From a virus, in the IMG/VR virus record IMGVR_UViG_3300021376_000370, positions 1 through 23,122 of that record: a stretch of DNA of 23,122 bases. One strand, given 5' to 3'. Below, piece by piece: positions 1,819-21,778 of the stretch. How positions within the stretch are numbered: position 1 is the stretch's first letter; each line of letters starts with the position of its first letter. Below the pieces are notes generated by a model. The model was not told the DNA's origin. It did no database searches and was given only the letters and a program-made list of their open reading frames with translations. Position numbers and translations under genes: made by a program.

Positions 1819-1834
1819 ATATTTATAACAAAAT
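1819..1834 (+). promoter_or_regulatory. Promoter-like motif ATATTTATAACAAAAT
   Basis: One of a family of near-identical 16-mers upstream of genes in this window. It starts 22 bases before the ATG of the neck gene at 1841 and is identical to the copy at 11859-11874. Probably a phage promoter serving the neck genes. Confidence 0.5.
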
Positions 1835-1840
1835 ATTACT

Positions 1841-2983
1841 ATGAATATTCCTATTTGGCCAGGTTCAAGTTCATTTGCTTCTGGATCTACACCGTTTGGA
1901 TTTTATGATAATGATAATCAATTTCAACAAGATGCTGATAAATTTGCTAAATTTGCCGCTCAACGTTTAGGATATCCATTAGTCGAAATTGAACTTCAAG
2001 ATATAAATTTCTACACTGCTTTAGAAGATGCAGTAACAACCTATGGAAACGAAGTATATGCTTACCAAGTAGCAGATAATTTATTAACTTTTCAAGGAAA
2101 TCCATTAACTATTTCTTCTCCAAATAATAAACTTGTTCAAGAAACATTATCTAATGTTGTTTTACTTTCAAACCAATACGGAACAGAAGCAGGAGTTGGA
2201 GGTAAAGTCACATATTACTCAGGTTCAATTGATCTTATTGCAAATCAGCAAAATTATAACATGAATACTTGGGCAATTTCCCAAAGTATTTCAGGTGGTA
2301 TTGAAATTAGAAGAATATATTACGAGGCACCCCCAGCAATTACAAGATATTTTGACCCATATGCTGGTACTGGTACTGGTATGATGCAAATGTTAGATAG
2401 TTTTGGATGGGGTTCATATTCTCCTGCTATTAACTTTATGTTAATGCCTATAAATTATGATTTACAAAAAATACAAGCAATTGAATTTAATGATCAAATT
2501 AGAAAATCACAATATACTTTTGAACTTGTTAATAATCAATTAAAAATATTCCCAATTCCACGAAATGCACATAAACTTTGTTTTCAATATGTTAAATTAA
2601 GTGAAACTAGACAACCGTATGCAGATATAAGTGGCAGTGTTATAACAAATGTGGCAGATGTTCCATATAATAACCCAGTTTATACTAATATAAATTCAAT
2701 TGGTCGTTCTTGGATATTTGAATATGCTCTAGCTATTTCAAAAGAAATATTAGGATACATTAGAGGAAAATATGCAAATATTCCAATTCCTGGTTCTGAA
2801 ATAACATTAAATCAATCCGATTTAATATCTGCTGCATCAACAGAAAAACAGGCATTAATAGAGCGTTTAAGAGCATATTTAGATACAACTTCACGTAAAG
2901 CTTTACTTGAAAAAAAAGCACTTGAAGCAGAAAGCCAACAAAAAACAATTAATTATGTACCAATGACAATTTTTATAGGATAA
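1841..2983 (+). CDS. Neck protein, T4 gp13-like
   Basis: 380 aa. Residues ~30-80 contain FAKFAAQRLGYPLVEIEL followed by a helix with ALEDAVTTYGNEV. This resembles the N-terminal helical region of gp13-type neck (head completion) proteins of T4-like and cyanophages, where a C-terminal helical/beta region binds the next neck ring. The C-terminus (~320-370) is a long charged helix. In T4, gp13 and gp14 close the DNA-filled head and form the tail docking site. The next gene starts one base after the stop, and the probable gp14 and clear gp15 homologues follow in T4 order, which supports the call. At 380 aa it is longer than T4 gp13 (about 309 aa). The family assignment rests on pattern and synteny. 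Confidence 0.65.
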   Translation: MNIPIWPGSSSFASGSTPFGFYDNDNQFQQDADKFAKFAAQRLGYPLVEIELQDINFYTALEDAVTTYGNEVYAYQVADNLLTFQGNPLTISSPNNKLVQETLSNVVLLSNQYGTEAGVGGKVTYYSGSIDLIANQQNYNMNTWAISQSISGGIEIRRIYYEAPPAITRYFDPYAGTGTGMMQMLDSFGWGSYSPAINFMLMPINYDLQKIQAIEFNDQIRKSQYTFELVNNQLKIFPIPRNAHKLCFQYVKLSETRQPYADISGSVITNVADVPYNNPVYTNINSIGRSWIFEYALAISKEILGYIRGKYANIPIPGSEITLNQSDLISAASTEKQALIERLRAYLDTTSRKALLEKKALEAESQQKTINYVPMTIFIG

Positions 2984-2984
2984 G

Positions 2985-3494
2985 ATGGCATTATTTGGCT
3001 CAGCTCGTGATATTTCATTATTTAAACATCTTAATAAAGAATTGTTGTGGGACATCATTACTCAACAATGTGCATTTTATCAATTAAAAACAGCTGAAAC
3101 TAAAGTAAATATTTATGGTGAAGCAGCAGGTGCTAGACATTATAATGAACCTGTTTTATTAAACGTATTAATTGAAAGAGGAGACTTTTCATCCCCAGTT
3201 GATGATTTTGGAGTAACTATAGACAGGCCTATGACCTTTAAATTTTTTAGAGATGATTTAATTTATGCTGAAATATTACCTAGAGTAGGAGATATTATCA
3301 TGTGGTATGAATCATATTGGGAAATAAATAATGTTAATGATAATCAACTTTTTGCAGGTAAAGATCCAAATTATCCATATAATACAAACCCACTTAACCC
3401 AGGATTAGAAAATTTTGGTTTTAATGTTTCTATTATTTGTACAGCACATTATGTTCCTGCAGATAAAGTTCAAATAAGTTCCGAGAGAATTTAA
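2985..3494 (+). CDS. Probable neck / head-closure protein, gp14-like position
   Basis: 169 aa. It starts one base after the upstream stop (TAAG-ATG), so it is co-translated with the gp13-like gene. Residues 1-60 are helical with KTAETKVNIYGEA. Residues ~60-120 are beta-rich and include RDDLIYAEILPRVGDIIMW, the strand-turn pattern of phage neck and head-closure proteins. Position between the gp13-like and gp15-like genes suggests the gp14 role of joining head and tail. It is shorter than T4 gp14 (about 256 aa), and direct similarity cannot be judged by eye. A non-gp14 head-tail connector is the main alternative. Confidence 0.55.
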   Translation: MALFGSARDISLFKHLNKELLWDIITQQCAFYQLKTAETKVNIYGEAAGARHYNEPVLLNVLIERGDFSSPVDDFGVTIDRPMTFKFFRDDLIYAEILPRVGDIIMWYESYWEINNVNDNQLFAGKDPNYPYNTNPLNPGLENFGFNVSIICTAHYVPADKVQISSERI

Positions 3495-3509
3495 TATATA
3501 TAATAAAAC
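3494..3509 (+). promoter_or_regulatory. Degenerate promoter-like motif before gp15-like gene
   Basis: ATATATATAATAAAAC differs from the ATATTTATAAYAAAAT family at two positions. It lies 53 bases before the ATG at 3547, farther than the other copies, in a 52-base gap with nothing else in it. Weak. Confidence 0.25.
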
Positions 3510-3546
3510 TAAAAATTTTACTTTTTACATATAAAGAATTTAGTGC

Positions 3547-4542
3547 ATGCCTAGAACTAGAAAACCAAATCCAAAATCTCAAAGGCAAATTTTAAATGAA
3601 CAAATTGAGCCATATGTTTTTCCTGAAACTGGAGAGTCACATGGTAACCCTAATTCTCCATCTAATTTTAATCAATTTACACCAAATGAACAAAGTGGAA
3701 TCGATCATAATCGTTCCAAACAAATGTCATTTAAAAATGATTCAGTAAAACCATTTACTCTTGGATTTGAAGATATAGATGAATCTATCCATTATTATTT
3801 TTCTAATGTAATCAAACCCTCAGTTATACAAAATAATAATAGAATTGCAGTACCTATAATTTATGGTTCCCCAGAACGATGGAAATCAACTCAAAAAGAT
3901 GGGTATTATAAAGATAAAAATGGAGCTATCATGGCACCATTAATCATGTTTAAACGTAGTAGTATAGATAAAAATAGGTCTATAGGTAATAAATTAGATG
4001 CAAATAGTCCAAATTTATATACATCTTTTAAAAAAACATACAATACAAAAAATGCCTATTCAAATTTTAATGTATTAAATAATAGGATACCAACAGAACA
4101 ATTTATAGTTAATGTAATTCCTGATTATGTTACTATAACATATGATTGTGCTATTCAAACATATTATGTTTCTCAATTAAATAAAATAGTTGAAGCTATA
4201 AATTATGCATCTGATTCATATTGGGGAAACCCTGAACGATTTAAATTTATGGCTAGAATTGATTCTTATCAAACCCCAATTGAAATTTCAGATAATACTA
4301 ATAGAATTGCAAAAGCTACATTTTCTTTAATTATTAAAGGATACATAGTACCTGATAATATTCAAAAACAATTAACAGCTATAAAAAAATACAATAGTAA
4401 ATCTCAGATTATTATTGGAATAGAAAGTGTAAGTTCAATAGCATCATTTACACCTTCCTCTATATCACCTGTACCTGAACCACTACCTCCATCACCTCAA
4501 GATGACGTGTTTTCAAGTGCCTTTTCTAATGCTTTTAGTTAA
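3547..4542 (+). CDS. gp15: Tail terminator / sheath stabiliser, T4 gp15-like
   Basis: 331 aa. The core matches the layout of T4 gp15 (272 aa): FSNV and a short linker, then RIAVPIIYGSPERW (gp15 has RVPITYASKEH), APLIMFKRSS, PDYVTITYDCAIQTYY with a following helix, an FKFMARIDS strand, and a final ATFSLIIKGYIVP (gp15 has IEWSLTFEVNGWMYP). gp15 forms the hexameric ring that caps tube and sheath and binds the neck. The extra length is a charged N-terminal extension (~1-70) and a C-terminal tail (~300-331) that is Pro/Ser-rich and ends VFSSAFSNAFS. That ending recurs in the insertion of the first sheath protein. In T4, terminase genes follow gp15; they are absent here. Confidence 0.85.
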   Translation: MPRTRKPNPKSQRQILNEQIEPYVFPETGESHGNPNSPSNFNQFTPNEQSGIDHNRSKQMSFKNDSVKPFTLGFEDIDESIHYYFSNVIKPSVIQNNNRIAVPIIYGSPERWKSTQKDGYYKDKNGAIMAPLIMFKRSSIDKNRSIGNKLDANSPNLYTSFKKTYNTKNAYSNFNVLNNRIPTEQFIVNVIPDYVTITYDCAIQTYYVSQLNKIVEAINYASDSYWGNPERFKFMARIDSYQTPIEISDNTNRIAKATFSLIIKGYIVPDNIQKQLTAIKKYNSKSQIIIGIESVSSIASFTPSSISPVPEPLPPSPQDDVFSSAFSNAFS

Positions 4543-4559
4543 AATATAAAATACAGATA

Positions 4560-5300
4560 ATGTCTCAACAAAACAAATCTACTTTACAATCAGCAATTAA
4601 TAGCCAATTAGCTGATAATACATCAGGTGATATCTCTGCAGCAGATGTAAGAGATAACTTGATTAACATGACGGATAGCCTCCTGTTTAATAGTGGCTCT
4701 CAAGATATTACAGGATCTCTTACTGCAACTTCATTTACCGGTTCATTACAAGGAACAGCAACAACTGCTTCCTATGTTGTAACGGCTCAAACGGCTTCCT
4801 ATGTAACAACTGCTGCAACTGCTTCATATGTGTTGCCGACATCACCAGCTTCAGTTTTAGTAGCTGTTGATGGAATTGGAAGTGATTTTGTTTCAAGCAG
4901 TGCTAACACATATAAAGAATATTTAATTCCTGCTAATACATTAACTACTTCTTCAATTTTAGAAGTTGAAGTAGGAATTGTTAAAGATACTTCTAATGGA
5001 GCAACTAATGTTTATTTGTTTTTATCCTCTTCACTTGCATCAAATACTCTTGCATCTGCAACACTTAACACAAATCAAACATATTCCCCGTTATGGAGAA
5101 ATTTTGCTATAAGTGGTTCTTCAATTATATCATTAACCCCAAATTCCACAGCGGCAACAGATGCTGTAGTATCTACCCTAGCAATTACATCTTCTTCAAT
5201 TGATACTACGATTGATAATTATCTTTTAGTTATAACTCTTACCCCTGGCTCTAACGCAATTTCAAGATTATTATATTGTAGAATAACGGCACATAAATAA
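4560..5300 (+). CDS. Short fibre-like virion protein
   Basis: 246 aa. The N-terminus (SAINSQLADNTSGDISAADV, then RDNLINMTDS) matches an N-terminal attachment region I recognise from many phage fibre or appendage proteins. Residues ~48-95 are Ser/Thr/Ala repeats (ITGSLTATSFTGSLQGTATT, TASYV) like those in the fibre at 22-1569. Residues ~97-246 form a beta-rich C-terminal domain, not obviously related to that of the first fibre. It starts 17 bases after the gp15-like gene and is followed by a strong terminator. The repeats shared with the first fibre suggest a common shaft design or related ancestry. Virion location is likely, receptor binding is inferred. Confidence 0.65.
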   Translation: MSQQNKSTLQSAINSQLADNTSGDISAADVRDNLINMTDSLLFNSGSQDITGSLTATSFTGSLQGTATTASYVVTAQTASYVTTAATASYVLPTSPASVLVAVDGIGSDFVSSSANTYKEYLIPANTLTTSSILEVEVGIVKDTSNGATNVYLFLSSSLASNTLASATLNTNQTYSPLWRNFAISGSSIISLTPNSTAATDAVVSTLAITSSSIDTTIDNYLLVITLTPGSNAISRLLYCRITAHK

Positions 5301-5322
5301 ATTTATAATAATTTTTTAAAAT

Positions 5323-5348
5323 GGGCCTCTAAATGAGGCCCTTTTTTT
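5323..5348 (+). terminator. Strong intrinsic terminator
   Basis: GGGCCTC (5323-5329), a TAAAT loop and GAGGCCC (5335-5341) form a perfect 7-bp G+C-rich stem followed by seven T residues (5342-5348). It stands out in this A+T-rich region and ends the neck/fibre transcription unit 23 bases after the fibre stop. Confidence 0.92.
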
Positions 5349-5349
5349 C

Positions 5350-5363
5350 ATATTTATTAGAAA
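5350..5363 (+). promoter_or_regulatory. Promoter-like motif, diverged
   Basis: ATATTTATTAGAAA directly abuts the ATG at 5364 and follows the terminator by one base. It matches the start of the recurring ATATTTATAAYAAAAT motif but is closer to its gene than the others. It would allow only a leaderless transcript. Confidence 0.25.
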
Positions 5364-5507
5364 ATGGCAAAAGCAAAAGCACAAACCGCAGTTTCATTCA
5401 TGAAAAAACCTCGTAAAAAAAGACCTGGTGTTCATGCAAAATCAAAAACTAGTAAACTTAAATCAAGTAAAAACTATATTAAACCTTATACAGCACAAGG
5501 TAAATAA
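5364..5507 (+). CDS. Very basic 47-aa protein, conserved type, unknown function
   Basis: The sequence runs MAKAKAQTAVSFMKKPRKKR, then PGVHAKSKTSKLKSSKNYIK, and ends PYTAQGK. About one third of the residues are Lys or Arg and there is no acidic residue. I recall similar short proteins (KRPGVHAK.KTSK..SKNY) from structural regions of uncultured phages, but know of no assigned function. A nucleic-acid-binding or head-internal role is a guess from the charge. It sits alone between a strong terminator and the coiled-coil gene, with no Shine-Dalgarno site. Confidence 0.7.
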   Translation: MAKAKAQTAVSFMKKPRKKRPGVHAKSKTSKLKSSKNYIKPYTAQGK

Positions 5508-5534
5508 AACTTGGTTACATAATATTTTTATATT

Positions 5535-5550
5535 ATATTGATAATAAATA
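5535..5550 (+). promoter_or_regulatory. Promoter-like motif, diverged
   Basis: ATATTGATAATAAATA matches the recurring motif at most positions and starts 37 bases before the ATG at 5572. The surrounding gap (5508-5571) is almost pure A+T with no other visible element. Confidence 0.3.
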
Positions 5551-5571
5551 AAACAAATAAATAAATAAAAA

Positions 5572-5835
5572 ATGGAAACAGTTACAGAAAAACAGTTTTT
5601 AATTGAAGAAGAATTAAATAACTTAAAACAAATTCAAAACCAAACACAATCCCTAATATTAGAATTAGGTGAAATTGAAATGATCAAAATTCAAATTGAA
5701 GCACGTTACCAAAATGCTAAAGAATTTTTAGCTGAAATTTCAAATTTAGAAAAAGATTTTACAAAATCAATATTTGATAAATATGGTAAAGTAAATATTA
5801 ACCCAAAAACAGGTGAGATCACTAAATTAGATTAA
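5572..5835 (+). CDS. Small coiled-coil protein (87 aa), unknown function
   Basis: Residues ~5-72 form a nearly continuous charged helix with heptad spacing of Leu/Ile (EEELNNLKQIQNQTQSLILE, then LGEIEMIKIQIEARYQNAKE). The C-terminus carries KYGKVNINPKTGEITKLD, a short beta hairpin-like end. I recall this layout, with a LGEIE centre and a KYG...I....G end, as common in uncultured phage tail regions, but with no known role. Position just before the sheath genes suggests an assembly factor or a minor tail component. The start is the only ATG fitting the helix. Confidence 0.7.
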   Translation: METVTEKQFLIEEELNNLKQIQNQTQSLILELGEIEMIKIQIEARYQNAKEFLAEISNLEKDFTKSIFDKYGKVNINPKTGEITKLD

Positions 5836-5853
5836 TTTAGATCAAAATACACC

Positions 5854-5869
5854 ATATTTATAATAAAAT
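5854..5869 (+). promoter_or_regulatory. Promoter-like motif ATATTTATAATAAAAT
   Basis: An exact consensus copy 24 bases before the first sheath gene. Sheath protein is needed in high copy, so a dedicated promoter here is expected. Confidence 0.5.
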
Positions 5870-5877
5870 AATTTATT

Positions 5878-8037
5878 ATGCCTGAAACTATTGTATCACC
5901 TGGTGTATTAGCTATAGAAAACGATCAATCATTTATTACTCAAGGGCCATTACAGGCAGGAGCTGCTATAATTGGCCCAACAGTAAAAGGAAAAGTAGGA
6001 ATCCCTGTATTATGTACTACATATAGTGATTATTCAAATAAATTTGGCTCTACATTTTTAAGTGGAAGTCAAACCTATTCCTACCTAACCTCAATTTCAG
6101 CTTATAATTATTTTAATAATGGTGGCACTTCATTACTTGTAACTAGAGTAGTAAGTGGGACATTTGAACCAGCTACTTCATCAATTATTCCTTCATCAAA
6201 TGCCGCTACTTCAGCTTCACTAACTTTAAATTTATCTTATATTCCTATTGATGTAAACCTTGTAGGTTCAAGTTCATTTGGAGTAAATGGAATTACATTT
6301 TATTTTACTGGGTCAACTGTAGACAATACTCCAACTATTATATATATTAATACAGCTTCATTTTCTGATTCAACTCCAGCAAGTTATGCTGTTACCTCAT
6401 CTGCTATATTTAATATTAGTAGTTCTGCAACAGCATATAGTAGTTCATTACAATATATTTCTTCAAGTGTTTTATCATCTAATATAGTGTTTACTTATAT
6501 TGGATCAAATGGTTTATTAGGTAATTCTCAGTATGTAAATATACCAAATAATATTTCTGGAGCATTTTCTAATGCTTTTTCAAATGCATTTAATACAATG
6601 TACCCAACCCAAAGTCAATTTTTTGGAGGTACAAATACTGAAGCATTTGTATTAGAAACCCTGTCCGAAGGTGAAATAATGAACAGCTCAGGTTCATTAT
6701 ATGCTAATGGTACATTAGAAAATGGAACAGCAGACAATCTTAGATGGCAAATTGTTTCACATAATGTAAATAATGGAACCTTTACTTTATTAATTCGACG
6801 AGGTAATGATTCTACACTTACTCCTTCAATTTTAGAAACATGGTCTAATTTATCATTAGATCCATTTGCTTCAAATTATATTGAAAGAGTAATTGGAAAT
6901 CAATATGAAACTATTGCAAATGACAATGGTGAATATTATGTTCAATTAAATGGTGAATATCTTAATAAATCACGTTATATACGTGTTAAACAAGTAAATT
7001 TGACTACCCCAGATTATTTTGATAATACAGGGAATCCAAAACCTCAATATACTGGTTCTCTTCCAACATCTTCTTTAGGTGTATTTGGTGGAGCAATAGG
7101 AAAAAATTTACCAACAGGAGTAGCAGGAGCATATTACAATAACATTTCAAACACAAATATCCAAGGTTTACCGGCTTCTGCATATGCTGAATCTATTTCG
7201 CTTTTAGCAAATCAAAATGCTTATAAATATAATTTAATTACTGCTCCTGGTTTAATAGCAGATGGAACTAATTTCCCATCCCACTTTCCAGTAGTATCCC
7301 AACTAATTAATACAGTGCAAAATAGAGGAGATGCAATGACAGTAATCGATCTAGTTGGATACGGTTCCAATATACTCCCAGTAACTACAAATGCTATAAC
7401 ATATGATACATCATATGCTGCAACATATTGGCCTTGGGTTTTAACCATTGACCCTAACTCAGGAAGACAAGTTTGGGTTCCTGCTTCAACTATGATTCCT
7501 GGAACATATGCATTTAATGATAGAGTTTCAGCTCCATGGTTTGCACCCGCGGGTATTAGTAGAGGTGTAATGTCTAATGTCATTAGAACAGAACGTAATC
7601 TAACCCAAGGTAATAGAGATTTACTTTATGAATCCAATATAAATTCAATTGCAACTTTCCCTAATACAGGTGTAACAGTATTTGGACAAAAAACATTACA
7701 GAAAAAAAGAAGTGCTCTTGACCGTGTAAATGTAAGACGTTTACTTATTGAATTAAAAAATTTCATATCCCAGGTAGCAAATACTTTAGTATTTGAACAA
7801 AATACTGCTGCAACACGTAATAATTTTTTATCTCAAGTTAATCCATATTTAGCTTCTGTTCAACAACAACAAGGTTTAACAGCATTTAGAGTAATAGTAG
7901 ATGAATCAAATAATACCCCTGAAGTAATAGATAATAACCAGTTAGTAGGCCAAATATATTTACAGCCTACAAGAACAGCTGAATTTATTGTATTAGATTT
8001 TAATATCTTACCTACAGGTGCAACTTTTCCTGCTTAA
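5878..8037 (+). CDS. gp18: Tail sheath protein 1 (gp18-like) with inserted domain
   Basis: 719 aa. The N-terminus (ETIVSPGVLAIE, GPLQAGAAIIGPTVKG, YSDYSNKFG) and C-terminus (ALDRVNVRRLLIELKNFISQ from ~612, then QNTAATRNNF, and VGQIYLQPTRTAEFIVLDF at the end) are the conserved core of contractile tail sheaths. The C-terminal ~110 residues form the inner domain that links neighbours by strand exchange. It is paralogous to the next gene along its whole length, except for an extra ~147 residues (~106-252) between GTFEPAT and AFVLETLSEG. That insert is Ser/Thr-rich, beta-rich and ends with AFSNAFSNAFN. Inserts here usually lie on the outer sheath surface. T4 gp18 is 659 aa. The product is almost certain; the division of labour between the two copies is unknown. 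Confidence 0.95.
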   Translation: MPETIVSPGVLAIENDQSFITQGPLQAGAAIIGPTVKGKVGIPVLCTTYSDYSNKFGSTFLSGSQTYSYLTSISAYNYFNNGGTSLLVTRVVSGTFEPATSSIIPSSNAATSASLTLNLSYIPIDVNLVGSSSFGVNGITFYFTGSTVDNTPTIIYINTASFSDSTPASYAVTSSAIFNISSSATAYSSSLQYISSSVLSSNIVFTYIGSNGLLGNSQYVNIPNNISGAFSNAFSNAFNTMYPTQSQFFGGTNTEAFVLETLSEGEIMNSSGSLYANGTLENGTADNLRWQIVSHNVNNGTFTLLIRRGNDSTLTPSILETWSNLSLDPFASNYIERVIGNQYETIANDNGEYYVQLNGEYLNKSRYIRVKQVNLTTPDYFDNTGNPKPQYTGSLPTSSLGVFGGAIGKNLPTGVAGAYYNNISNTNIQGLPASAYAESISLLANQNAYKYNLITAPGLIADGTNFPSHFPVVSQLINTVQNRGDAMTVIDLVGYGSNILPVTTNAITYDTSYAATYWPWVLTIDPNSGRQVWVPASTMIPGTYAFNDRVSAPWFAPAGISRGVMSNVIRTERNLTQGNRDLLYESNINSIATFPNTGVTVFGQKTLQKKRSALDRVNVRRLLIELKNFISQVANTLVFEQNTAATRNNFLSQVNPYLASVQQQQGLTAFRVIVDESNNTPEVIDNNQLVGQIYLQPTRTAEFIVLDFNILPTGATFPA

Positions 8038-8061
8038 TATAGGATTTTTAGAAAAAAATTA

Positions 8062-8077
8062 ATATTTATAATAAAAA
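8062..8077 (+). promoter_or_regulatory. Promoter-like motif ATATTTATAATAAAAA
   Basis: A near-consensus copy starting 20 bases before the second sheath gene, in a 44-base gap. Its presence implies that the two sheath genes can be transcribed separately. Confidence 0.5.
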
Positions 8078-8081
8078 TACA

Positions 8082-9794
8082 ATGGCAAAATTTACAGTTT
8101 CTCCAGGAACATCAATAAATGAAATAGATAAAACTTTTTTAGCAGGACAACCTATTCAAGCAGGGGCTGCTCTTATAGGCCCTACAGTAAAAGGTCCTGT
8201 TGAAATCCCCACCCTAGTTACTTCTTATTCAGAGTATCAAAACCTTTTTGGAGACACTTTTATAAGTGGTGGACAATCTTATTCATATTTAACTTCAATT
8301 GCAGCTTATAATTACTTTACTTATGGAGGAACTTCATTACTAGTAGCTAGAGTAGCTTCTGGTTCATATGAATACGCAACTAGTACTACTATTAGTTCTT
8401 ATTTAAACCAATCCTCAGCTTCATTTGTTTTAGAAACCCTTTCTGAAGGTATTCTTATGAATAACTCAGGGTCTATAGTTAGTAGTTCTTTAGTTTTGGG
8501 AAGTAAAGATAATATAAGATGGGAAATTACTAATTCAAACACAGGATCAGGTACCTTTAATTTATTAATTAGGCAGGGTAATGATACTGAAAATAATAAA
8601 GTTATATTAGAATCTTGGAACAATATAAATTTAGATCCAAACTCACCCCGTTATATTGCTAAAATAATTGGAAACCAATCAACTAATTATAATTCTAATA
8701 CTAATCAAATAGAAGTTACAGGGGATTATCCAAATAGTTCTAGGTTTATTCGCATTAAATCTGTTAATTTACCTACTATAAATTATTTTGATGCTAATGG
8801 AGTTGCAGTTTCTGCATATACTGCTTCTATTCCACAAAATGGAAGTGGTTTATATGGTGGTTCATTTACAGGTGCTACTGGAAATGTAAATACTACTATT
8901 AATTTATATGATAAAATTTCAAATAATACTCAAGGGTTAGCAGGAAGTGATTATAATAATATGATCACATTATTTTCAAATCCACTTGCTTACCAATTTG
9001 GTCTTTTATTCACCCCAGGATTATTAAATGATGTTCATACATCTCAAGTTACAAGTATCATAACTAATACCATAGCAAGAGGTGACAACATGTATGTAGT
9101 TGATTTAGTATCTTATGGAACTGCAATTTCACAAACAGTAACACAAGCTCTTCAATCAAAAGATACTTCATATGCTGCAACTTATTGGCCTTGGGCTCGC
9201 ATTATTGACCCTGGAACAGGAAAACATGTATGGGTCCCAGCTTCAACACTAATACCAGGAGTATATGCATTTAATGATAAAGTAGCAGCCCCATGGTTTG
9301 CACCAGCAGGTATTAATCGCGGGGGATTAAGTACTGTCCTTCAAGTTGAATCAAAACTATCTCAAGCACAAAAAGACATTTTATATTCTAGTAATGTAAA
9401 TCCTCTTGCAACTTTACCTAAACAGGGTGTTGTAGTATTTGGACAAAAAACATTACAAAAATCATCATCTGCACTTGATAGAGTAAATGTAAGACGTTTA
9501 ATGATAGAATTAAAAAACTATATTCGTCAAATTGCAGATACAATAGTATTTGAACAAAACACAGCTACTACAAGAAATTCATTTGTTGCTAAAGTTACTC
9601 CATATTTAGAAACAATTCAACAAAAACAAGGTTTATATGCCTTTAGAGTAGTAATAGATGATTCAAATAATGGACCAGATATAATAGATAATAATCAATT
9701 AATTGGACAAATTTATATTCAACCAACTCGTACAGCAGAATTTATTTCCCTAGATTTTATTTTATTACCAACGGGAGCAGAATTCCCAGCATAA
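8082..9794 (+). CDS. gp18: Tail sheath protein 2 (gp18-like), short form
   Basis: 570 aa. It has the same core as the upstream copy: KFTVSPGTSINEID, QPIQAGAALIGPTVKGPVEI, SFVLETLSEGILMNNSG, AATYWPWARIIDPGTGKHVW, PWFAPAGINRGG, ALDRVNVRRLMIELKNYI and GQIYIQPTRTAEFISLDF. The outer insert of copy 1 is missing, so this is the minimal sheath. The two proteins are similar but far from identical throughout, which indicates an old duplication maintained by selection rather than a recent repeat. Sheath hexamers stack on the tube and contract to drive it into the cell. It could form the main sheath or a specialised section, for instance near baseplate or neck. Confidence 0.95.
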   Translation: MAKFTVSPGTSINEIDKTFLAGQPIQAGAALIGPTVKGPVEIPTLVTSYSEYQNLFGDTFISGGQSYSYLTSIAAYNYFTYGGTSLLVARVASGSYEYATSTTISSYLNQSSASFVLETLSEGILMNNSGSIVSSSLVLGSKDNIRWEITNSNTGSGTFNLLIRQGNDTENNKVILESWNNINLDPNSPRYIAKIIGNQSTNYNSNTNQIEVTGDYPNSSRFIRIKSVNLPTINYFDANGVAVSAYTASIPQNGSGLYGGSFTGATGNVNTTINLYDKISNNTQGLAGSDYNNMITLFSNPLAYQFGLLFTPGLLNDVHTSQVTSIITNTIARGDNMYVVDLVSYGTAISQTVTQALQSKDTSYAATYWPWARIIDPGTGKHVWVPASTLIPGVYAFNDKVAAPWFAPAGINRGGLSTVLQVESKLSQAQKDILYSSNVNPLATLPKQGVVVFGQKTLQKSSSALDRVNVRRLMIELKNYIRQIADTIVFEQNTATTRNSFVAKVTPYLETIQQKQGLYAFRVVIDDSNNGPDIIDNNQLIGQIYIQPTRTAEFISLDFILLPTGAEFPA

Positions 9795-9809
9795 AAATTT
9801 AAAGACGGA

Positions 9810-9825
9810 ATATTTATAATAAAGA
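9810..9825 (+). promoter_or_regulatory. Promoter-like motif ATATTTATAATAAAGA
   Basis: A near-consensus copy starting 33 bases before the tail tube gene. The intervening leader is almost entirely A. Confidence 0.5.
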
Positions 9826-9842
9826 AATAAAACAAAAACAAA

Positions 9843-10331
9843 ATGGCAATTTTAAATCCCAACGAAATTTTTTTCACAGCGTTTGAACCAAAACAGAAAA
9901 ATCGCTTTATCCTTTATATAGATGGCATTCCATCTTTTATAGTAAAAGGAATGGGCGCTATTACATTAGAACAAACAGCTGTTGCCCTTAATCACATTAA
10001 CATACAACGTTATGTAAAAGGAAAAACAAAATGGTCAACTGTCCAGTTTACTTTATTTGATCCTATTACTCCTTCAGGAGCTCAATCTGTAATGGAATGG
10101 GTTCGTTTAGGTCACGAATCAGTAACAGGTAGAGATGGATATTCTGATTTTTATAAAAAAGACCTAACATTTAATGTTTTAGGCCCAGTAGGTGATGTAG
10201 TTTCTGAATGGATACTTAAAGGAGCTATGATTACTAATGCAACATTTGGTGACTATACTTGGGATGATGAAGGTGCCCCAGTAGATATTACATTAACAGT
10301 CCAACCAGATTATTGCATATTAAATTATTAA
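9843..10331 (+). CDS. gp19: Tail tube protein, T4 gp19-like
   Basis: 162 aa, practically the length of T4 gp19 (163 aa). Recognisable parts are KNRFILYIDGIPSFIVKGMG at the N-terminus, a central VKGKTKWSTVQFTLFDPITP, a helix QSVMEWVRLGHES, DLTFNVLGPVGDVVSEWILK and a C-terminal DDEGAPVDITLTVQPDYC. These form the beta-barrel whose hexamer rings stack into the tube through which DNA passes. Its place after the sheath genes matches the T4 18-19 order. A terminator follows closely. No anomalies seen. Confidence 0.93.
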   Translation: MAILNPNEIFFTAFEPKQKNRFILYIDGIPSFIVKGMGAITLEQTAVALNHINIQRYVKGKTKWSTVQFTLFDPITPSGAQSVMEWVRLGHESVTGRDGYSDFYKKDLTFNVLGPVGDVVSEWILKGAMITNATFGDYTWDDEGAPVDITLTVQPDYCILNY

Positions 10332-10354
10332 TATACATAATCCAACATAAGAAC

Positions 10355-10390
10355 AAAAGCTCCGCATATATTTGTTGGAGCTTTTATTTT
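10355..10390 (+). terminator. Intrinsic terminator after tail tube gene
   Basis: AAAAGCTCC (10355-10363) pairs perfectly with GGAGCTTTT (10377-10385) across a 13-base loop, followed by ATTTTTCTTT. An alternative pairing of TCCAAC (10341-10346) with GTTGGA (10374-10379) overlaps it. It separates the tail tube unit from the baseplate/tape measure unit. Confidence 0.8.
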
Positions 10391-10405
10391 TCTTTAGAAT
10401 ATTAA

Positions 10406-10421
10406 ATATTTATAACTATAT
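10406..10421 (+). promoter_or_regulatory. Promoter-like motif ATATTTATAACTATAT
   Basis: The first eleven bases match the recurring motif; the A-rich right end is replaced. It starts 24 bases before the ATG at 10430 and directly follows a terminator, a logical place for a new promoter. Confidence 0.45.
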
Positions 10422-10429
10422 TATAGTAA

Positions 10430-10801
10430 ATGAACTTAACTACTTTACGTACTTTAGTAAAAGAAGAACTCAAAAAAACTTTAAGTGAAGACTACCAGGA
10501 TAAATTTAAAATGGTAGGAACTCTTATTACTAACCTTGAATCTAGACCCCAAAAAGAAATTTATTCAGATATTCGTTCAATTACTGGAATATCAGTTATT
10601 TCATCAAAAGAACCACTTGAATATAATGAACAAGATACTACTAAATTTCAATCAATATTAACAGTTAAAGTAGATGGTTACCCATTCATGACAAAAGGAG
10701 GATTTAGTAGAGATAAAATGACAGAAATAGCTGCCCAAATTAGAAAAGTACCAGGAGTTATTGCTTTTAATTTTAATCCTGATAATATTTCTCCTCTTTA
10801 A
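10430..10801 (+). CDS. Small protein of unknown function (123 aa), possible ferredoxin-like fold
   Basis: The N-terminus (LRTLVKEELKKTLSEDYQDK) is helical and resembles short helical leaders on many phage tail-region proteins. Residues ~40-115 have a beta-alpha-beta look: IYSDIRSITGISVISS, then FQSILTVKVDGYPF, a helix TEIAAQIRKVPG and VIAFNF. The two IR..(P/T)G(I/V) elements suggest an ACT-like or ferredoxin-like fold, which is inferred and not a family match. It lies between the tube gene and the gp26-like gene, so a role in tail or baseplate assembly is plausible. I do not recognise a named homologue. Confidence 0.65.
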   Translation: MNLTTLRTLVKEELKKTLSEDYQDKFKMVGTLITNLESRPQKEIYSDIRSITGISVISSKEPLEYNEQDTTKFQSILTVKVDGYPFMTKGGFSRDKMTEIAAQIRKVPGVIAFNFNPDNISPL

Positions 10802-10820
10802 TATATGTATATAAGACAAT

Positions 10821-10836
10821 AAAGTTATAATAAAAT
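10821..10836 (+). promoter_or_regulatory. Promoter-like motif, diverged left half
   Basis: AAAGTTATAATAAAAT keeps the right half (TATAATAAAAT) of the recurring motif but not the left. It starts 23 bases before the ATG at 10844. Confidence 0.35.
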
Positions 10837-10843
10837 AAAAATT

Positions 10844-11578
10844 ATGGAAGAATTTGAAGTTCAAACAGAAACAATTGAATTGCCCTCTAAAGGTTTAATT
10901 TACCCCCCAGAAAACCCATTATCATCAGGCACCATTGAAATGAAGTATATGACTGCAAAAGAAGAAGATATTCTTTTGAATCAAAATTACATTAAAAATG
11001 GTACTGCTATTGATAAATTAATGAAAGCACTTATTGTATCTAAAATTAATTATGATGATTTAATAGTTGGTGATAGAAATGCAATTATGGTTGCTTCTCG
11101 TATTTTAGGATATGGACCTGAATATACATTTGAACATAATGGTGAAGAACATACTGTTGATTTATCTCAAATAGAAAACAAACCATTAGATGAAGAAAAT
11201 TTCCCTAAAGGTGTAAACGATTTTCCTTTTACGTTACCTCATTCTAAAATTAATATTACATTTAAACTATTAACTTCTTTAGATGAAAAAAATATAGATA
11301 GAGAATTAGAGGGACTTAAAAAAATGAACAAAGATAGCTCTCCAGAACTATCAACTCGAATGAAATATATAATAACTTCTATAAATAAAAATCAAGAAAC
11401 AAAATATATTCGAGACTTTGTAGATAAGCATCTCTTAGCTAGAGATTCAAAAGCCCTTAGAACATATATTAAAGCTTTCCAACCAGATGTAGATCTAACT
11501 TTTTTTCCCGACGATAGTTCAACTAAAATCAATATACCAATTGGGCTTAAGTTTTTTTGGCCTGACTTTGGAGAATAG
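10844..11578 (+). CDS. Baseplate hub protein, T4 gp26-like (T4_baseplate family type)
   Basis: 244 aa. The N-terminal signature ELPSKGLIYPPENPLSSGTI, followed by IEMKYMTAKEEDILLNQNYI, is the pattern of the gp26-type baseplate proteins (LPS.G....P......I......KEE..LL). Next come a helix AIDKLMKALIV, the conserved VGDRNAIMVASRILGYGPEY, and a His/Asp-bearing segment where related proteins may carry cysteines. The family acts in assembly of the central baseplate hub. T4 gp26 is about 208 aa. The 3' end contains a run of seven T (11552-11558), and from there another frame continues for 94 codons beyond the TAG. Placement just before the tape measure gene also fits a tape measure chaperone. Confidence 0.75.
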   Translation: MEEFEVQTETIELPSKGLIYPPENPLSSGTIEMKYMTAKEEDILLNQNYIKNGTAIDKLMKALIVSKINYDDLIVGDRNAIMVASRILGYGPEYTFEHNGEEHTVDLSQIENKPLDEENFPKGVNDFPFTLPHSKINITFKLLTSLDEKNIDRELEGLKKMNKDSSPELSTRMKYIITSINKNQETKYIRDFVDKHLLARDSKALRTYIKAFQPDVDLTFFPDDSSTKINIPIGLKFFWPDFGE

Positions 11579-11843
11579 TTCTCAAGCTAAAATAGCAATA
11601 TACAAACAAATTCATCAAATTTGTTTTCATGGAAAAGGAGGATACAGTTGGCATGATGTTTACAACATGCCAATTTGGCTCCGTCGTTTTATTTTCTCCG
11701 AAATTAAAACCTACTATTCGGAAGAACAACAATCATATAAGTCTAAATCCCAACCTAATACAAAAACAGTAATAGACTCAGAAGGTAAAGTAAAATCTCC
11801 TGAATATTTAAAACACGTTAAAAAACCAATTAAATATAGTTAA
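11541..11843 (+). CDS. Baseplate/tape-measure-associated ORF, overlapping, likely reached by frameshift
   Basis: The frame is open from 11499 and ends at 11843. The core is SSQAKIAIYKQIHQICFHGK, then GYSWHDVYNMPIWLRRF, with a charged C-terminal tail. I recall similar short segments (Y.MP..LR.F) directly after gp26-type genes in other phages. The only candidate starts are TTG at 11541 or 11568 inside the upstream gene; the first in-frame ATG lies at the Met of NMPIW, past the conserved core. There is no Shine-Dalgarno site. It is therefore either translated as a +1/-2 frameshift extension of the upstream protein or from a rare start. Frameshifted protein pairs just before the tape measure gene are known as tail assembly chaperones in many phages (lambda G/GT, P2 E/E'). 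The exact 5' end is uncertain. Confidence 0.65.
   Translation: MGLSFFGLTLENSSQAKIAIYKQIHQICFHGKGGYSWHDVYNMPIWLRRFIFSEIKTYYSEEQQSYKSKSQPNTKTVIDSEGKVKSPEYLKHVKKPIKYS
11552..11558 (+). promoter_or_regulatory. Candidate frameshift site (T7 run)
   Basis: In the gp26-like frame the run is read AAG TTT TTT TGG. A +1 slip (or a -2 slip) lets the Phe tRNA re-pair perfectly and enter the frame of the downstream ORF, which has no ATG near its beginning. The fusion would be about 332-333 aa. A one-base homopolymer error (six T instead of seven) would give the same fusion and must be excluded. Confidence 0.4.
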
Positions 11844-11858
11844 AAGTATTATAACTTA

Positions 11859-11874
11859 ATATTTATAACAAAAT
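11859..11874 (+). promoter_or_regulatory. Promoter-like motif ATATTTATAACAAAAT
   Basis: Identical to the copy before the neck gene (1819-1834), starting 24 bases before the tape measure ATG. Confidence 0.5.
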
Positions 11875-11882
11875 AACAGAAT

Positions 11883-14195
11883 ATGGCTCTTAGTGATGAT
11901 GCTAAAGACTTAAAAGGTGTACTTAGAGAAGTTCAAGCGGCAATGGAAGCCGCACGTAAATCTGGATTAGGAATAGCTGATGGTATGTCTGCTAGTAAAG
12001 ATGCTTTAGCAGGACTATTAGGTGCAGCCCAACAATTTACAGAGTATCAAGAAAGTTCAACTGGAGCAAGTTATGAGCAATTAAAAGCTCTTCAAGAAAA
12101 ATTTAAAACAGAAAAGGAAAATCTTTCTATATCCCAACAAGCTCTTATAGCACAAAAAACATTAGCTGAGAAACAAAAATTATCGAATGAAAGTCTTATA
12201 AAATCTCTTAAATTAAAAGAAAAATCAGATGAAATTTCAAATTCAGAAATAGTTGATTTAAAAGAAGCTATTAATAAAAATAAAGAATTAAAACAAACTA
12301 TTGCAGAGCAAGGGATTCAAATGGCCCAAAATGAGTTAATTTTAAAAAATGTTGGTGGGGCAGTCCAACAACTAGAAAGTGATTTAGACAAAGCTGCTAA
12401 AAAAGCTAAAGATATAGAAGGATTTGAAAAAGCTATGGGTGGTTTTGGAAAGGCTATAGATAGTGTAAGAACTCCTTTAGATGGCCTTTTAAACCCCCTT
12501 AATTTAATTAATACAATTATTAGTTTTGTTTTTGGTCAATTTAAAGAAGTAGACGAAGCCGCTGGAAAAACGGCTAAAAGTATGAATATTTCCTACAACG
12601 AAGCTGTAAGAATGAGAGAGGAAATGGCAGCTGCTGCTGATGCTTCAGGAGAGTTAACTTTGAACTCTAAAGCCATGGAAGCTACTCTCGTAAACATAAA
12701 TGCTGCTTTAGGATCTAGTGTTAAATATTCTGATTTAAGTGAGCCACTTAAAAAAGATATTCAATTAATGTCCCAATTAGAAGCAGCAGCTGGGTTAACA
12801 GGAGAACAATCCCAAGCTATAATGAAATATTCTATGGGCACTGGGCAACATGCTAAAGACGTTACTAAAGAATTAATGGCTTCATATAAAGTTCAAGGCC
12901 TTAAATCAGGACTTGTACTAAATGAAAAAGATGCTATGAAAGCCATAGAAAAAACATCTAAAGCTATCCAAATGTCTTATGGTGGTAATGCTAAAGAACT
13001 TGGAAAAGCCTTAGCTGCTGCCAAAGGATTAGGTGTTGAATTAAATAAAGTTGATGATATAGCAGGTAGTTTGTTAGATTTTGAACAATCAATTGAAAAC
13101 GAATTAAGTGCTGAATTATTGTTAGGAAAAGATATAAATCTTGAAAAAGCAAGACAAGCAGCATTAAATGGTGATCTAGCAACAGTAGCAGAAGAAATCA
13201 CTAAACAAGTAGGATCAGCAGCTGAATTTAATAAAATGAACCGCCTCCAGCAAGAAGCAATGGCTAAAGCTATTGGTATGAGTAGAGAAGAATTAGCTGG
13301 TGCTTTAATGGAACAAACAGCACTTAAAAATATAGGTGCTGAATCTATTGCACAAGCCCAAGAACAATATAATTTAGCAGTAAAAGAAGGAAGAGAAAAA
13401 GAATTTTTAAATGAACTTGGTGACGAAGCACTAGGTAAACAACTTGAACAAACCTCAGTAGCTGAAAAAGCCCAATTAGCCCAACAAAAAATGGCAGATG
13501 AAACCATGCCTGCTATAGCTAATACTTTAACAAAAGTATCTGATAATTTTGAAGATATTTTTAAGAAGGTAAAGAGTATTATAGACCGTCTTGGAGGAAT
13601 GAAAACAGTTATGATGATAATAGCAGGTATAATGACTGCTAAAATAGTTAAAGGGATTATGGATTTTACTGGAGGGGCTATGAAAGCATATCAATGGGTG
13701 AAAAAAATGAAACAAGCTGAAGAAGGAGCTGCAAAACTATCCCTTATTAAAGGGGCATGGTCCTCTTCAGGTATTATCCCATTTGTAGGTGCTGGTCTAG
13801 CAATAGCCGCCATTGCTGCAGGAATAGCTCTTATATCTAGTATATCTAATACTGGAGATGATGTTTTATCATCATCTCTTGGAGATAGCGGATATGGAAA
13901 AAGAGTATTGTTTGGTCCTGAAGGTGCTATTAAACTTAACAATAAAGATACTATTGTAGCTGGAACAGATTTATTTGCCGATGATGCTGTTATGGAACCT
14001 GGAAAAGCTACCCAATCCGCTAATAAGGGAGAAATTAAAATTAAATCTGAAGGTGGTGGAGGACAAGACATGTCAGCAATGGTATCAGCAATAACATCCT
14101 TAGCAAATAGACCTATCAATAATTATATGGATGGTGAAAAAGTAGGAGAAGCTTCATTCTTAAAAATGAAAAACAGAAATTATCAAATAATGTAA
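11883..14195 (+). CDS. Tail tape measure protein
   Basis: 770 aa. Almost entirely helical and Ala/Lys/Glu-rich, with coiled-coil character at ~60-190 and a long amphipathic middle. Hydrophobic stretches lie at ~570-595 (MKTVMMIIAGIMTAKIVKGI) and ~628-656 (IIPFVGAGLAIAAIAAGIAL), as usual in tape measure proteins, which may insert in the host membrane on ejection. Residues ~675-698 read VLFGPEGAIKLNNKDTIVAG, a C-terminal element I know from tape measure proteins of Bacteroidetes-type phages. It fills the tube lumen and fixes tail length; by the usual ~0.15 nm per residue the tail would be near 115 nm. It corresponds functionally to T4 gp29 (590 aa). It directly follows the probable chaperone ORF. 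No lytic domain is seen in it. Confidence 0.85.
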   Translation: MALSDDAKDLKGVLREVQAAMEAARKSGLGIADGMSASKDALAGLLGAAQQFTEYQESSTGASYEQLKALQEKFKTEKENLSISQQALIAQKTLAEKQKLSNESLIKSLKLKEKSDEISNSEIVDLKEAINKNKELKQTIAEQGIQMAQNELILKNVGGAVQQLESDLDKAAKKAKDIEGFEKAMGGFGKAIDSVRTPLDGLLNPLNLINTIISFVFGQFKEVDEAAGKTAKSMNISYNEAVRMREEMAAAADASGELTLNSKAMEATLVNINAALGSSVKYSDLSEPLKKDIQLMSQLEAAAGLTGEQSQAIMKYSMGTGQHAKDVTKELMASYKVQGLKSGLVLNEKDAMKAIEKTSKAIQMSYGGNAKELGKALAAAKGLGVELNKVDDIAGSLLDFEQSIENELSAELLLGKDINLEKARQAALNGDLATVAEEITKQVGSAAEFNKMNRLQQEAMAKAIGMSREELAGALMEQTALKNIGAESIAQAQEQYNLAVKEGREKEFLNELGDEALGKQLEQTSVAEKAQLAQQKMADETMPAIANTLTKVSDNFEDIFKKVKSIIDRLGGMKTVMMIIAGIMTAKIVKGIMDFTGGAMKAYQWVKKMKQAEEGAAKLSLIKGAWSSSGIIPFVGAGLAIAAIAAGIALISSISNTGDDVLSSSLGDSGYGKRVLFGPEGAIKLNNKDTIVAGTDLFADDAVMEPGKATQSANKGEIKIKSEGGGGQDMSAMVSAITSLANRPINNYMDGEKVGEASFLKMKNRNYQIM

Positions 14196-14201
14196 TGTTC
14201 A

Positions 14202-14217
14202 ATATGTATAACAAAAA
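14202..14217 (+). promoter_or_regulatory. Promoter-like motif ATATGTATAACAAAAA
   Basis: One internal change (T to G) relative to the consensus. It starts 27 bases before the ATG at 14229 and probably drives the baseplate genes that follow, which have no further good copies between them. Confidence 0.45.
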
Positions 14218-20727: not shown

Positions 20728-21756
20728 ATGTCATATTATCCAAAATCTCAAATAAAAACTAATCTTTACACAGCAGGAAAATATAGAATTCCTTCTTCCC
20801 CTATAGAAGGATATAAAGGATATTACTATGAAACTTCTTCTGGTAAAAAATATACTGGAAAATTCCCTGGAGATGGATTAAATACACTATTAACCCCTAA
20901 CATACCTTCAGGAGAAGTAAACCCTTATGATCTCTCTAATTATCAACCAGATACATACATAATTGTAAACAATGTAGTAGTAGGTGATAGAGCAGGAGAC
21001 CCAGATTTTGATCATAATTATACTCCATTAAATCAAAATTTACTACCTCGTTCAATCCCCTCATTTCATTATCCAAAACCAACCCCACAAGAAATTCAAC
21101 AAGGAGCAATTACAAGATATTTTTGTAAAAAGAACAATGAGTATAAATACATTGAAATCAATAAAGACACATTTAATAAACTTCAATCTCAAGATAAATC
21201 AATAGCATGGGACTTATATACTCCTACATCTTTAACATATAATCTTAATAGTAGATCATTTTACCTTTCCCCATCAATTATTGAATCTCGGCTTGGGTGG
21301 ATTGGATTTTCTAAATATGCAAAACTATTAAAAGTATATACTGAAGGAAGTAGAACAACCGGCAACATAGCAAATCCATCATCACCTAGTAATATTAATG
21401 ATTTATATACTTCTGGAGATGAATTTACTACTCAAAATGGCCAAAATTATGTAGGATTTTACCATGTACATAAAAACACCACCCCAATGGTAGGAAAAAC
21501 TCATACTGATGCTCCTCATGAAACCCTTATCCCTGTTTCAGGCAAAACCCTTCTCCAAATAGTTACCAAATACCTATCTAACCCAGAAAATTTGCCAACA
21601 TTTCTTCAAAATAATACAAATACTTCTTATTCCCAACCTGATACTACAGAAAATATGGGATCTAGTGGTGGAGGAATGAGTAGTGGTGGAGGATATAGTG
21701 GTGGAGGAATGAGTAGTGGTGGAGGATATAGTGGTGGAGGAGGTGGGGGTTATTAA
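20728..21756 (+). CDS. Structural protein with His cluster and Gly-rich tail, probable baseplate/tail tip part
   Basis: 342 aa. The N-terminal half is Tyr/Pro/Asn-rich (SSPIEGYKGYYYETSSGKKY). Residues ~240-270 contain YVGFYHVHKNTTPMVGKTHT and a further His, giving H246, H248, H259 and H264. The HxH element recalls metal-binding HxH motifs in phage spikes and fibres, but no fold is recognisable. I recall the YH.H..T.PMVG..H element from other uncultured phage proteins downstream of hubs. Residues ~311-342 are Gly/Ser repeats ending GGGGGGY. It follows the hub gene by 22 bases and is the last structural-looking gene. No enzyme domain is identified. A tail tip, adhesin or baseplate role is inferred from context. 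Confidence 0.6.
   Translation: MSYYPKSQIKTNLYTAGKYRIPSSPIEGYKGYYYETSSGKKYTGKFPGDGLNTLLTPNIPSGEVNPYDLSNYQPDTYIIVNNVVVGDRAGDPDFDHNYTPLNQNLLPRSIPSFHYPKPTPQEIQQGAITRYFCKKNNEYKYIEINKDTFNKLQSQDKSIAWDLYTPTSLTYNLNSRSFYLSPSIIESRLGWIGFSKYAKLLKVYTEGSRTTGNIANPSSPSNINDLYTSGDEFTTQNGQNYVGFYHVHKNTTPMVGKTHTDAPHETLIPVSGKTLLQIVTKYLSNPENLPTFLQNNTNTSYSQPDTTENMGSSGGGMSSGGGYSGGGMSSGGGYSGGGGGGY
21664..21729 (+). repeat. Two 33-bp tandem repeats encoding SGGGMSSGGGY
   Basis: Units 21664-21696 and 21697-21729 are identical in sequence and in frame, followed by a shortened Gly-rich unit up to the stop. The perfect identity suggests recent expansion or slippage. The encoded Gly/Ser/Tyr tail would be flexible. Confidence 0.9.
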
Positions 21757-21766
21757 TTTTTTTTGG

Positions 21767-21778
21767 ATATTTAAAATA
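21767..21778 (+). promoter_or_regulatory. Promoter-like motif, partial, before polymerase gene
   Basis: ATATTTAAAATA differs from the left part of the recurring motif at one position and starts 31 bases before the ATG at 21798. The A-rich right end is missing. Weak; the polymerase may be expected to use a different (early or middle) promoter. Confidence 0.25.

Follow-up and report, generated by a model that had tools for sequence, protein, structure and literature searches.

The virus record IMGVR_UViG_3300021376_000370, analysed here over its full 23,122 bases and hereafter called the window, raises the question of why one short motif recurs ahead of successive genes. The window is probably a fragment; its main genes lie on the + strand and specify the parts of a contractile tail (head-tail adaptor, a tandem pair of sheath proteins, tube, baseplate hub, tape measure and wedge subunit), and non-coding DNA makes up 3.6% of it according to the gene list made in this analysis. 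An earlier note on this DNA had offered three readings of the motif: a + strand phage promoter giving short leaders, a T4-type box firing antisense, or a translation signal. Orientation, position at gene-unit starts, late-gene bias, the lack of a -35 element and a sigma-like protein in relatives together favour the first. We consider it probable that a clade of large contractile-tailed phages uses the motif as its late promoter, read in the direction of the genes and in a T4-like mode by host RNA polymerase with a phage sigma factor. Position, orientation, gene class and architecture all give good support to its identity as a sense-strand late promoter.

Sheath protein 2 of the window is 100% identical to one in a 51-kilobase (kb) contig (L004, or G001) that is practically the window's own phage. 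The nearest named relatives are the Flavobacterium phages immuto (about 51% identical; L085 among our loci), with a complete genome and a named host, Flavobacterium sp. LMO8. Two genome-sized contigs, G002 (166 kb) and G003 (174 kb), and Microcystis phage Mel-JY01 (L294) were also compared.

Within the window, ATATTTATAAYAAAAT with up to two mismatches occurs ten times, always on the + strand and each time ahead of a gene, compared with a mean of 1.40 and a maximum of 5 in 100 dinucleotide shuffles. At up to one mismatch there are four copies against 0.09 expected, and at up to three there are 20 on both strands against 11.6 expected, indicating noise within the loose copy list. All ten copies lie within non-coding DNA, those at 3494 and 5350 overlapping a gene by one base. 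The bare 8-mer TATTTATA was rejected as a signal, with a window count of 10 against 8.6 expected and thus no enrichment; the information resides in the longer word and its position. All seven copies that the earlier note had called clear were recovered where it placed them, 20-33 nucleotides (nt) ahead of an ATG (Table 1). It had also described tightly coupled genes as free of the motif, and this holds both here and in relatives for those at 1569, 2985, 14487 and 16441; the coupled gene at 16767 has no copy in the window even at three mismatches.

The same placement recurs among relatives. In the best 80 of 436 loci reached through the sheath protein, TATTTATAAYA occurs 334 times, in every case on the + strand of the locus, which holds 753 of the 768 called genes (a count that includes three pieces of the window). 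Between called genes lie 331 of these copies, with two inside genes in sense and one antisense; the motif is therefore not equally common inside genes or on the other strand, the outcome that the earlier note had said would tell against a promoter. A called start follows 10-36 nt downstream of 308 copies and more than 100 nt downstream of seven, and 19 have no following gene. The loci are not independent, many being close relatives; grouping by 45-mer leaves 229 of the 267 distinct flanked sites. A matrix built from those sites was used to score orthologues of the window genes (Table 1): the motif was found before one of 10 fibre orthologues and before none of those of the genes of 51 (n = 3), 169 (17), 331 (20), 246 (5), 100 (27), 649 (20) and 105 (18) amino acids (aa), and the scoring gave no row for the genes of 47, 1312, 342 and 421 aa. 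Because the matrix was derived from the same loci, these counts show placement rather than independent discovery.

Orientation was surveyed in 240 loci (matrix score of at least 14; 293 distinct sites). Intergenic positions on the majority strand accounted for 283 sites, of which 241 had a same-strand start 10-40 nt away, while four sites were intergenic on the minority strand and six lay in genes. One of the four minority-strand sites fronts a minority-strand gene, as part of an inverted two-gene unit in G002 that has the box in its own orientation, and its homologue in L037, also inverted, has TATTTATAA 11 nt ahead of its ATG. The remaining three have no gene nearby. Seven minority-orientation exact copies in contigs bearing the sigma candidate described below were treated as chance, none having a same-strand called start within 40 nt.

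The genes that carry the motif belong disproportionately to the virion. In immuto, a virion region was defined as 81.9-104.4 kb plus 113.9-160.4 kb, by annotation rather than timing and after the motif sites had been seen. When only genes preceded by a gap of 25 nt or more are counted, TATKTATAA lies within 45 nt upstream in 11 of 24 virion-region genes versus 1 of 57 others (Fisher p = 2e-6); for all genes, the counts are 12 of 62 versus 3 of 153.

The architecture of the box was derived from immuto, G002 and G003, which together have 67 TATKTATAA sites followed by a start within 40 nt. An A precedes the box in 90% of these sites, and an A-rich run extends from +11 to +18 after the first T of the box, with A at 72-87% from +11 to +13. 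No -35 signal was found: information in columns -45 to -2 reaches at most 0.18 bits, with some columns above the 95% null level (0.083) and none above the 99.9% level (0.190). A C peak at -33 in an earlier site set derived from orthologous sites of few genes and vanished with the 67 sites. In 24,085 intergenic bases before + genes of the same three genomes, TATTTATAAYA occurs 23 times versus 0.52 in shuffles (2 on the reverse strand), TATGTATAA 14 times versus 0.74 (1 on the reverse strand) and TATTTATA 51 times versus 5.8 (21 on the reverse strand).

T4 late promoters have one 8-base-pair TATA box, A/T-rich sequence downstream and no -35 conservation, as set out in the available text of Geiduschek and Kassavetis (PMC2988020). 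The flavobacterial-phage element shares with these promoters, which depend on gp55, gp33 and gp45, the single 8-base-pair TATA box, the A/T-rich stretch just downstream, the lack of a -35 element and the position before late genes; likewise, the relatives encode a phage protein resembling sigma region 2, and G002 and G003 a gp45-like clamp. Unlike in T4, the box is TATTTATA rather than TATAAATA and often has an AYAAAA tail, the sigma candidate (232-245 aa, against 185 aa for gp55) has an extra helical C-terminal domain without a clear fold match, and the predicted leaders are very short and without Shine-Dalgarno sites. The late box is known to vary among T4 relatives (KVP40, 44RR, S-PM2 and Aeh1), again in the available text of PMC2988020; the Aeh1 change described there is at -13/-12, whereas the flavobacterial-phage box differs in two central bases. 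Since the canonical TATAAATA was tested as the sense-strand box and the box proved to be TATTTATA, we do not class the element as a T4 late promoter. The earlier note had stressed that the motif is the exact reverse complement of the T4 late box; this is correct by sequence but carries little weight, because TAT..ATA is its own reverse complement and the sense strand also matches at six of eight positions.

A gp55-like late sigma, which the earlier note had proposed looking for, has a candidate in the relatives: an unannotated protein, the structural model of which is similar to sigma-70 region 2 and T4 gp55. The gp55-like profile phrog_234 matched in two of nine records, G003 (E = 7e-4) and immuto (E = 0.008), and Sigma70_r2 matched the homologous protein in G003 (1e-4) and G002 (0.02), both below the curated cut-off. 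The candidates are homologous, those of G002 and immuto being 86% and 45% identical to that of G003; in immuto the protein is gene 153, annotated "hypothetical protein". Relatives of it are encoded in at least 600 stretches of viral contigs. An alignment was made from 45 of 160 loci, and 32 of its 45 members matched Sigma70_r2 at E ≤ 1 (best 0.0024, below the curated cut-off) and eight matched phrog_234 at E ≤ 0.1 (best 0.01).

The AlphaFold model of the candidate (mean predicted local distance difference test score, pLDDT, 74.9; predicted template modelling score, pTM, 0.45) aligns through residues 24-126 to sigmaE region 2 (Z 9.7, root-mean-square deviation 2.3, 91 residues) and through residues 20-145 to T4 gp55 (7d7c_F; Z 10.4, deviation 5.1, 110 residues). 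Most rows of its structure-match list are sigma factors. In a viral structure library, the single match at E ≤ 0.001 is unnamed and several named rows beneath it are sigma factors; a search of solved structures by sequence with the sigma profile returned no match. Modelled separately, the last 98 residues, at the C-terminus, fold well (pTM 0.81). A sigma region 4 or gp33 fused at this end was considered, and among the rows shown for the separate model there was no such match, only weak ones such as a Fur-like helix-turn-helix, which does not exclude a fusion.

TATTTATAAYA was present in 12 of the 13 sigma-bearing long contigs tested from the 160 sigma loci, and absent from the eight named phages searched: T4, six others with an annotated gp55, and Mel-JY01 (KVP40, 44RR, S-PM2 and Aeh1 were not searched). 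No clear motif was found in 31.6 kb around the sheath gene of LR756508, a 484-kb uncultured phage whose sigma homologue is 40% identical. That the candidate reads the box would be the most economical interpretation of this co-occurrence and of the predicted fold. As for other parts of a late system, the gp45-type clamp had a direct match in one of nine records (G002, E = 2.7e-7), the G003 homologue being 84% identical to the G002 protein, and was not found in immuto by profile search. Another late-sigma family, phrog_12791, had no match in nine records. A search of 11 records for a multisubunit RNA polymerase (beta-prime) gave no match, while each of the 14 controls was detected; a search for single-subunit RNA polymerase was uninformative, the controls themselves being without a match.

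A sister case is offered by Mel-JY01, whose sigma homologue is 36% identical and lies in a stretch that also holds a tail lysozyme gene. This phage lacks TATTTATAAYA and has the core ATATTTAT, which occurs within 70 nt upstream of nine of the 43 annotated + genes in its first 50 kb (shuffles: mean 0.92, maximum 6), with one antisense copy; the genes belong to the late region and include that of the tail tube and the one after the terminase. The distance from core to start is 41-45 nt for six of these copies and 22-27 nt for the other three, and Shine-Dalgarno-like sites can be read by eye in between. Genome-wide, there are 26 intergenic copies, 21 of them with a same-strand start within 120 nt, among these two minus-strand copies 49 and 89 nt before one minus-strand gene; a further 64 copies are in genes (28 sense, 36 antisense). 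A common core with a different leader in two lineages is as expected of a promoter.

Under the proposed mechanism, the promoter would consist of the 8-base-pair TATA-like TATTTATA, which nearly always has an A before it and often AYAAAA after it, with no -35 element, and a phage protein of 232-245 aa with sigma-70 region 2 (immuto gene 153) would direct host RNA polymerase to it. The A-rich stretch after the box would be the segment that melts. Assuming a T4-like geometry, in which the box spans -13 to -6, the predicted start site falls about 13 nt beyond the first T of the box; the most frequent leader length would then be about 8 nt, and several mRNAs would be leaderless. A broader proposal, for which we judge the case evenly balanced, is that a whole clade of Bacteroidota myophages shares a gp55-like late system, apparently undescribed so far. 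The box ATATTTATAAYAAAA would be read by the clade's own sigma, made up of region 2 and a C-terminal domain of unclassified type, from promoters so near the start codons that the late virion mRNAs would have little or no leader, in hosts with ribosomes that do without Shine-Dalgarno pairing; a cyanobacterial sister lineage would keep the ATATTTAT core, mostly about 42 nt upstream, with room for a Shine-Dalgarno site.

Several observations weigh against a late promoter read by a phage sigma. The correspondence with late genes is incomplete: 13 of the 24 gapped virion-region genes of immuto lack the motif, three of its 153 non-late genes carry it, and so does a homing endonuclease gene in G003. 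In immuto, there are four copies on the reverse strand (two intergenic, two in genes) and ten on the forward strand. The earlier note had seen copies directly after terminators; this holds locally for two of them but is no general trend, upstream terminators preceding 6 of 53 motif genes and 38 of 215 others in immuto, the two genome-sized contigs and the window, and terminator-promoter coupling was dropped as general support. The gp55 profile also matches in seven of 14 cellular control genomes, nine of the 45 aligned sigma members match a PHROG of unknown function better (best 5e-4), and hhalign of the family against eight gp55 proteins is weak (probability 26%, E = 7e-4). According to the structure tool, a Z under about 13 may reflect a common arrangement in helical models, and no PDB match at E ≤ 0.001 came from Foldseek by itself. 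The link between sigma and box is one of co-occurrence, confounded with common descent, and some of the 13 contigs hold only one or two copies; the sigma gene was found neither in the 51-kb contig with the identical sheath protein nor among the open reading frames (ORFs) of the window, both of which may be fragments. The canonical T4 TATAAATA is itself mildly enriched in the intergenic set (21 versus 9.75), partly as a by-product of TATTTATAAATAAA. Two registers relative to T4 are possible, TATTTATA (six of eight identical) or the overlapping TATAAYAA; boxes 11-13 nt from the ATG fit only the TATTTATA register, with leaders near zero. The smallest box-to-ATG distance was discarded as proof of the start site, being also the point where box and ATG would overlap, and the single 10-nt case was read as coding sequence.

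The box might instead be a sense-strand promoter read by a host sigma or another phage factor, the sigma-like protein having a different task, and this we consider unlikely. Co-occurrence is what ties sigma and box, and the motif does contain TATAAT, a general -10-like word; yet a factor present throughout infection would not account for the late bias, a -35 signal is lacking, and the core shared with Mel-JY01 is ATATTTAT rather than TATAAT. In Bacteroidetes sigma-A promoters, the class of the likely host, TTTG is the upstream element, and the phage motif has neither TTTG nor any upstream element. Sigma-70-like sites are not enriched in the window (111 versus 117.3 in shuffles), one being listed at 5836-5864. 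For Flavobacterium itself, the sigma-A box is TAnnTTTG in the available text of PMC9723704, and the two-part host promoter TTTG-N17-20-TANNTTTG has no sense intergenic copy in G002, G003 or immuto.

That the motif is a translation-initiation signal in the mRNA of a phage whose host does not use Shine-Dalgarno sites is very unlikely, for all its nearness to start codons of genes that lack such sites. At conserved N-termini, the spacing from box to start varies from 12 to 36 nt (excluding five outliers above 100 nt and one of 10 nt), coupled genes are without the motif, and the distinction between late and non-late genes, with a single motif at the 57 gapped non-late genes of immuto, would not be expected of a general translation signal. 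In Mel-JY01, moreover, the box lies mostly 41-45 nt upstream with a Shine-Dalgarno-like site between it and the start. The lack of Shine-Dalgarno sites that the earlier note reported is real: such words are at or below background at the starts of G002 (5/153 versus 46/453 at internal ATGs), G003 (14/171 versus 41/508) and immuto (5/153 versus 65/451), and are found at 1 of 18 starts in the window and 8 of 23 in a piece of T4. This lack is shared by genes with and without the motif, so the short leaders that the note had invoked do not explain it; it is described as general in Bacteroidetes in the available text of PMC6847099.

A protein-binding operator or a replication or packaging site unrelated to transcription starts would also be a recurrent conserved intergenic word, and is highly improbable given the single orientation relative to genes, the late-gene bias and the near-start position, none of which it would lead one to expect. 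Least probable of all is that the bottom strand holds a true T4 late box, TATAAATA, sending antisense RNA into the upstream gene: TATTTATA is its exact reverse complement, but the motif keeps to the gene-bearing strand, its position is tied to the downstream start codon with the conserved A-run on the gene side, the sense reading also matches T4 at six of eight positions, and the flipped gene pair in G002 has the box in its own direction.

Table 1. Copies of the putative late-promoter box in the window, with the genes that follow them and the relatives of those genes that carry the motif.
Element	Position	Strand	Downstream gene	Distance to ATG (nt)	Relatives with motif	Rating in earlier note
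Late-promoter box, exact	1819..1834	+	neck/head-tail adaptor, ATG 1841	22	12/13	clear
Weak copy, doubtful	3494..3509	+	ATG 3547	53	0/20	weak
Box variant ATATTTATTAGAAAAT	5350..5365	+	unlisted 47-aa gene, ATG 5365 (touched by box); after terminator-like hairpin 5323-5341			weak
Weak copy, doubtful	5535..5550	+	87-aa gene, ATG 5572		7/55	weak
Box, exact	5854..5869	+	tail sheath 1, ATG 5878	24	60/74	clear
Box	8062..8077	+	tail sheath 2, ATG 8082	20	78/79	clear
Box	9810..9825	+	tail tube, ATG 9843	33	69/70	clear
Box	10406..10421	+	123-aa gene, ATG 10430	24	24/39	clear
Variant box AAAGTTATAATAAAAT	10821..10836	+	baseplate hub, ATG 10844		1/33 (motif score reached)	weak
Box, exact	11859..11874	+	tape measure, ATG 11883	24	22/23	clear
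Box variant TATGTATAA	14202..14217	+	82-aa gene, ATG 14229	27	16/25	clear

The copies that the earlier note had listed as weak fared unequally. The one at 5350 is likely real, because TATTTATAATAAAATG fronts genes of 47-48 aa in L076, L078 and L081 whose N-terminus is similar to that of the gene at 5365, and the one at 10821 is a conserved variant, AAGTTATAAYAAA being present in most of 14 upstream sequences of hub-gene relatives; those at 3494 and 5535 are doubtful from their relatives, and the one at 21767 is unconvincing. Before relatives of the 123-aa gene there are 20 exact copies, 16 of them at a distance of 12-13 nt from the ATG. Some boxes have further structure around them. The hairpin ahead of the 5350 copy, GGGCCTCTAAATGAGGCCC followed by T's, recurs in G002 before a 383-aa head-completion gene, directly ahead of a box, and an intergenic inverted repeat with a T-rich tail, seen by eye, lies upstream of the 10406 box. 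The full 48 nt ahead of the hub gene (TTTAATATATGTATATAAGACAATWAAGTTATAAYAAATAAAAATT, 10796-10843) are conserved far beyond what a promoter needs in the comparison with L004, L006, L013 and L050.

Among the neighbouring genes, the tandem tail sheath genes at 5878-9794 (719 and 570 aa) both match phrog_23 and have a box each, and immuto has one annotated sheath gene. The 47-aa gene at 5365-5508 is lysine-rich, falls under the length cut of the ORF list and has similar genes in some relatives. A 342-aa protein ends in glycine-rich tandem repeats, SGGGYSGGGM (about 21650-21756), and the 421-aa gene at 21783-23048 matches only the later part of the DNA polymerase profile phrog_17; the polymerase may be a split one, in view of the two separate genes for family-A polymerases in immuto. 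In Mel-JY01, a gene annotated as ribosomal protein S21 lies among the head genes (L294:22183-22410). Annotated 7-deazaguanine pathway genes in immuto (QueC, QueD, QueE, QueF, FolE and DpdA; L085:18607-37015) suggest that its DNA is modified, which might affect how the promoter is read.

Late transcription in phages of Bacteroidota seems little described. We found no paper combining "Flavobacterium phage" with "late promoter" and no literature on Mel-JY01; the single match on sigma factors and late promoters in phages of Bacteroidetes was an overview of jumbo phages; a search for the motif string gave none on phage promoters, by title, among the papers listed, and a word search of the available text of a Baltic Flavobacterium phage paper (PMC7077304) met neither "immuto" nor "promoter". 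The idea can be tested directly, since a putative promoter and a candidate sigma are combined here with a named phage, immuto, whose genome is complete and whose host is Flavobacterium sp. LMO8. If it is true, the box and its sigma would provide an orthogonal promoter-sigma pair for Flavobacterium, late genes could be called in many metagenomic contigs, and these phages would represent a natural case of near-leaderless mRNA in hosts that do not use Shine-Dalgarno sites.

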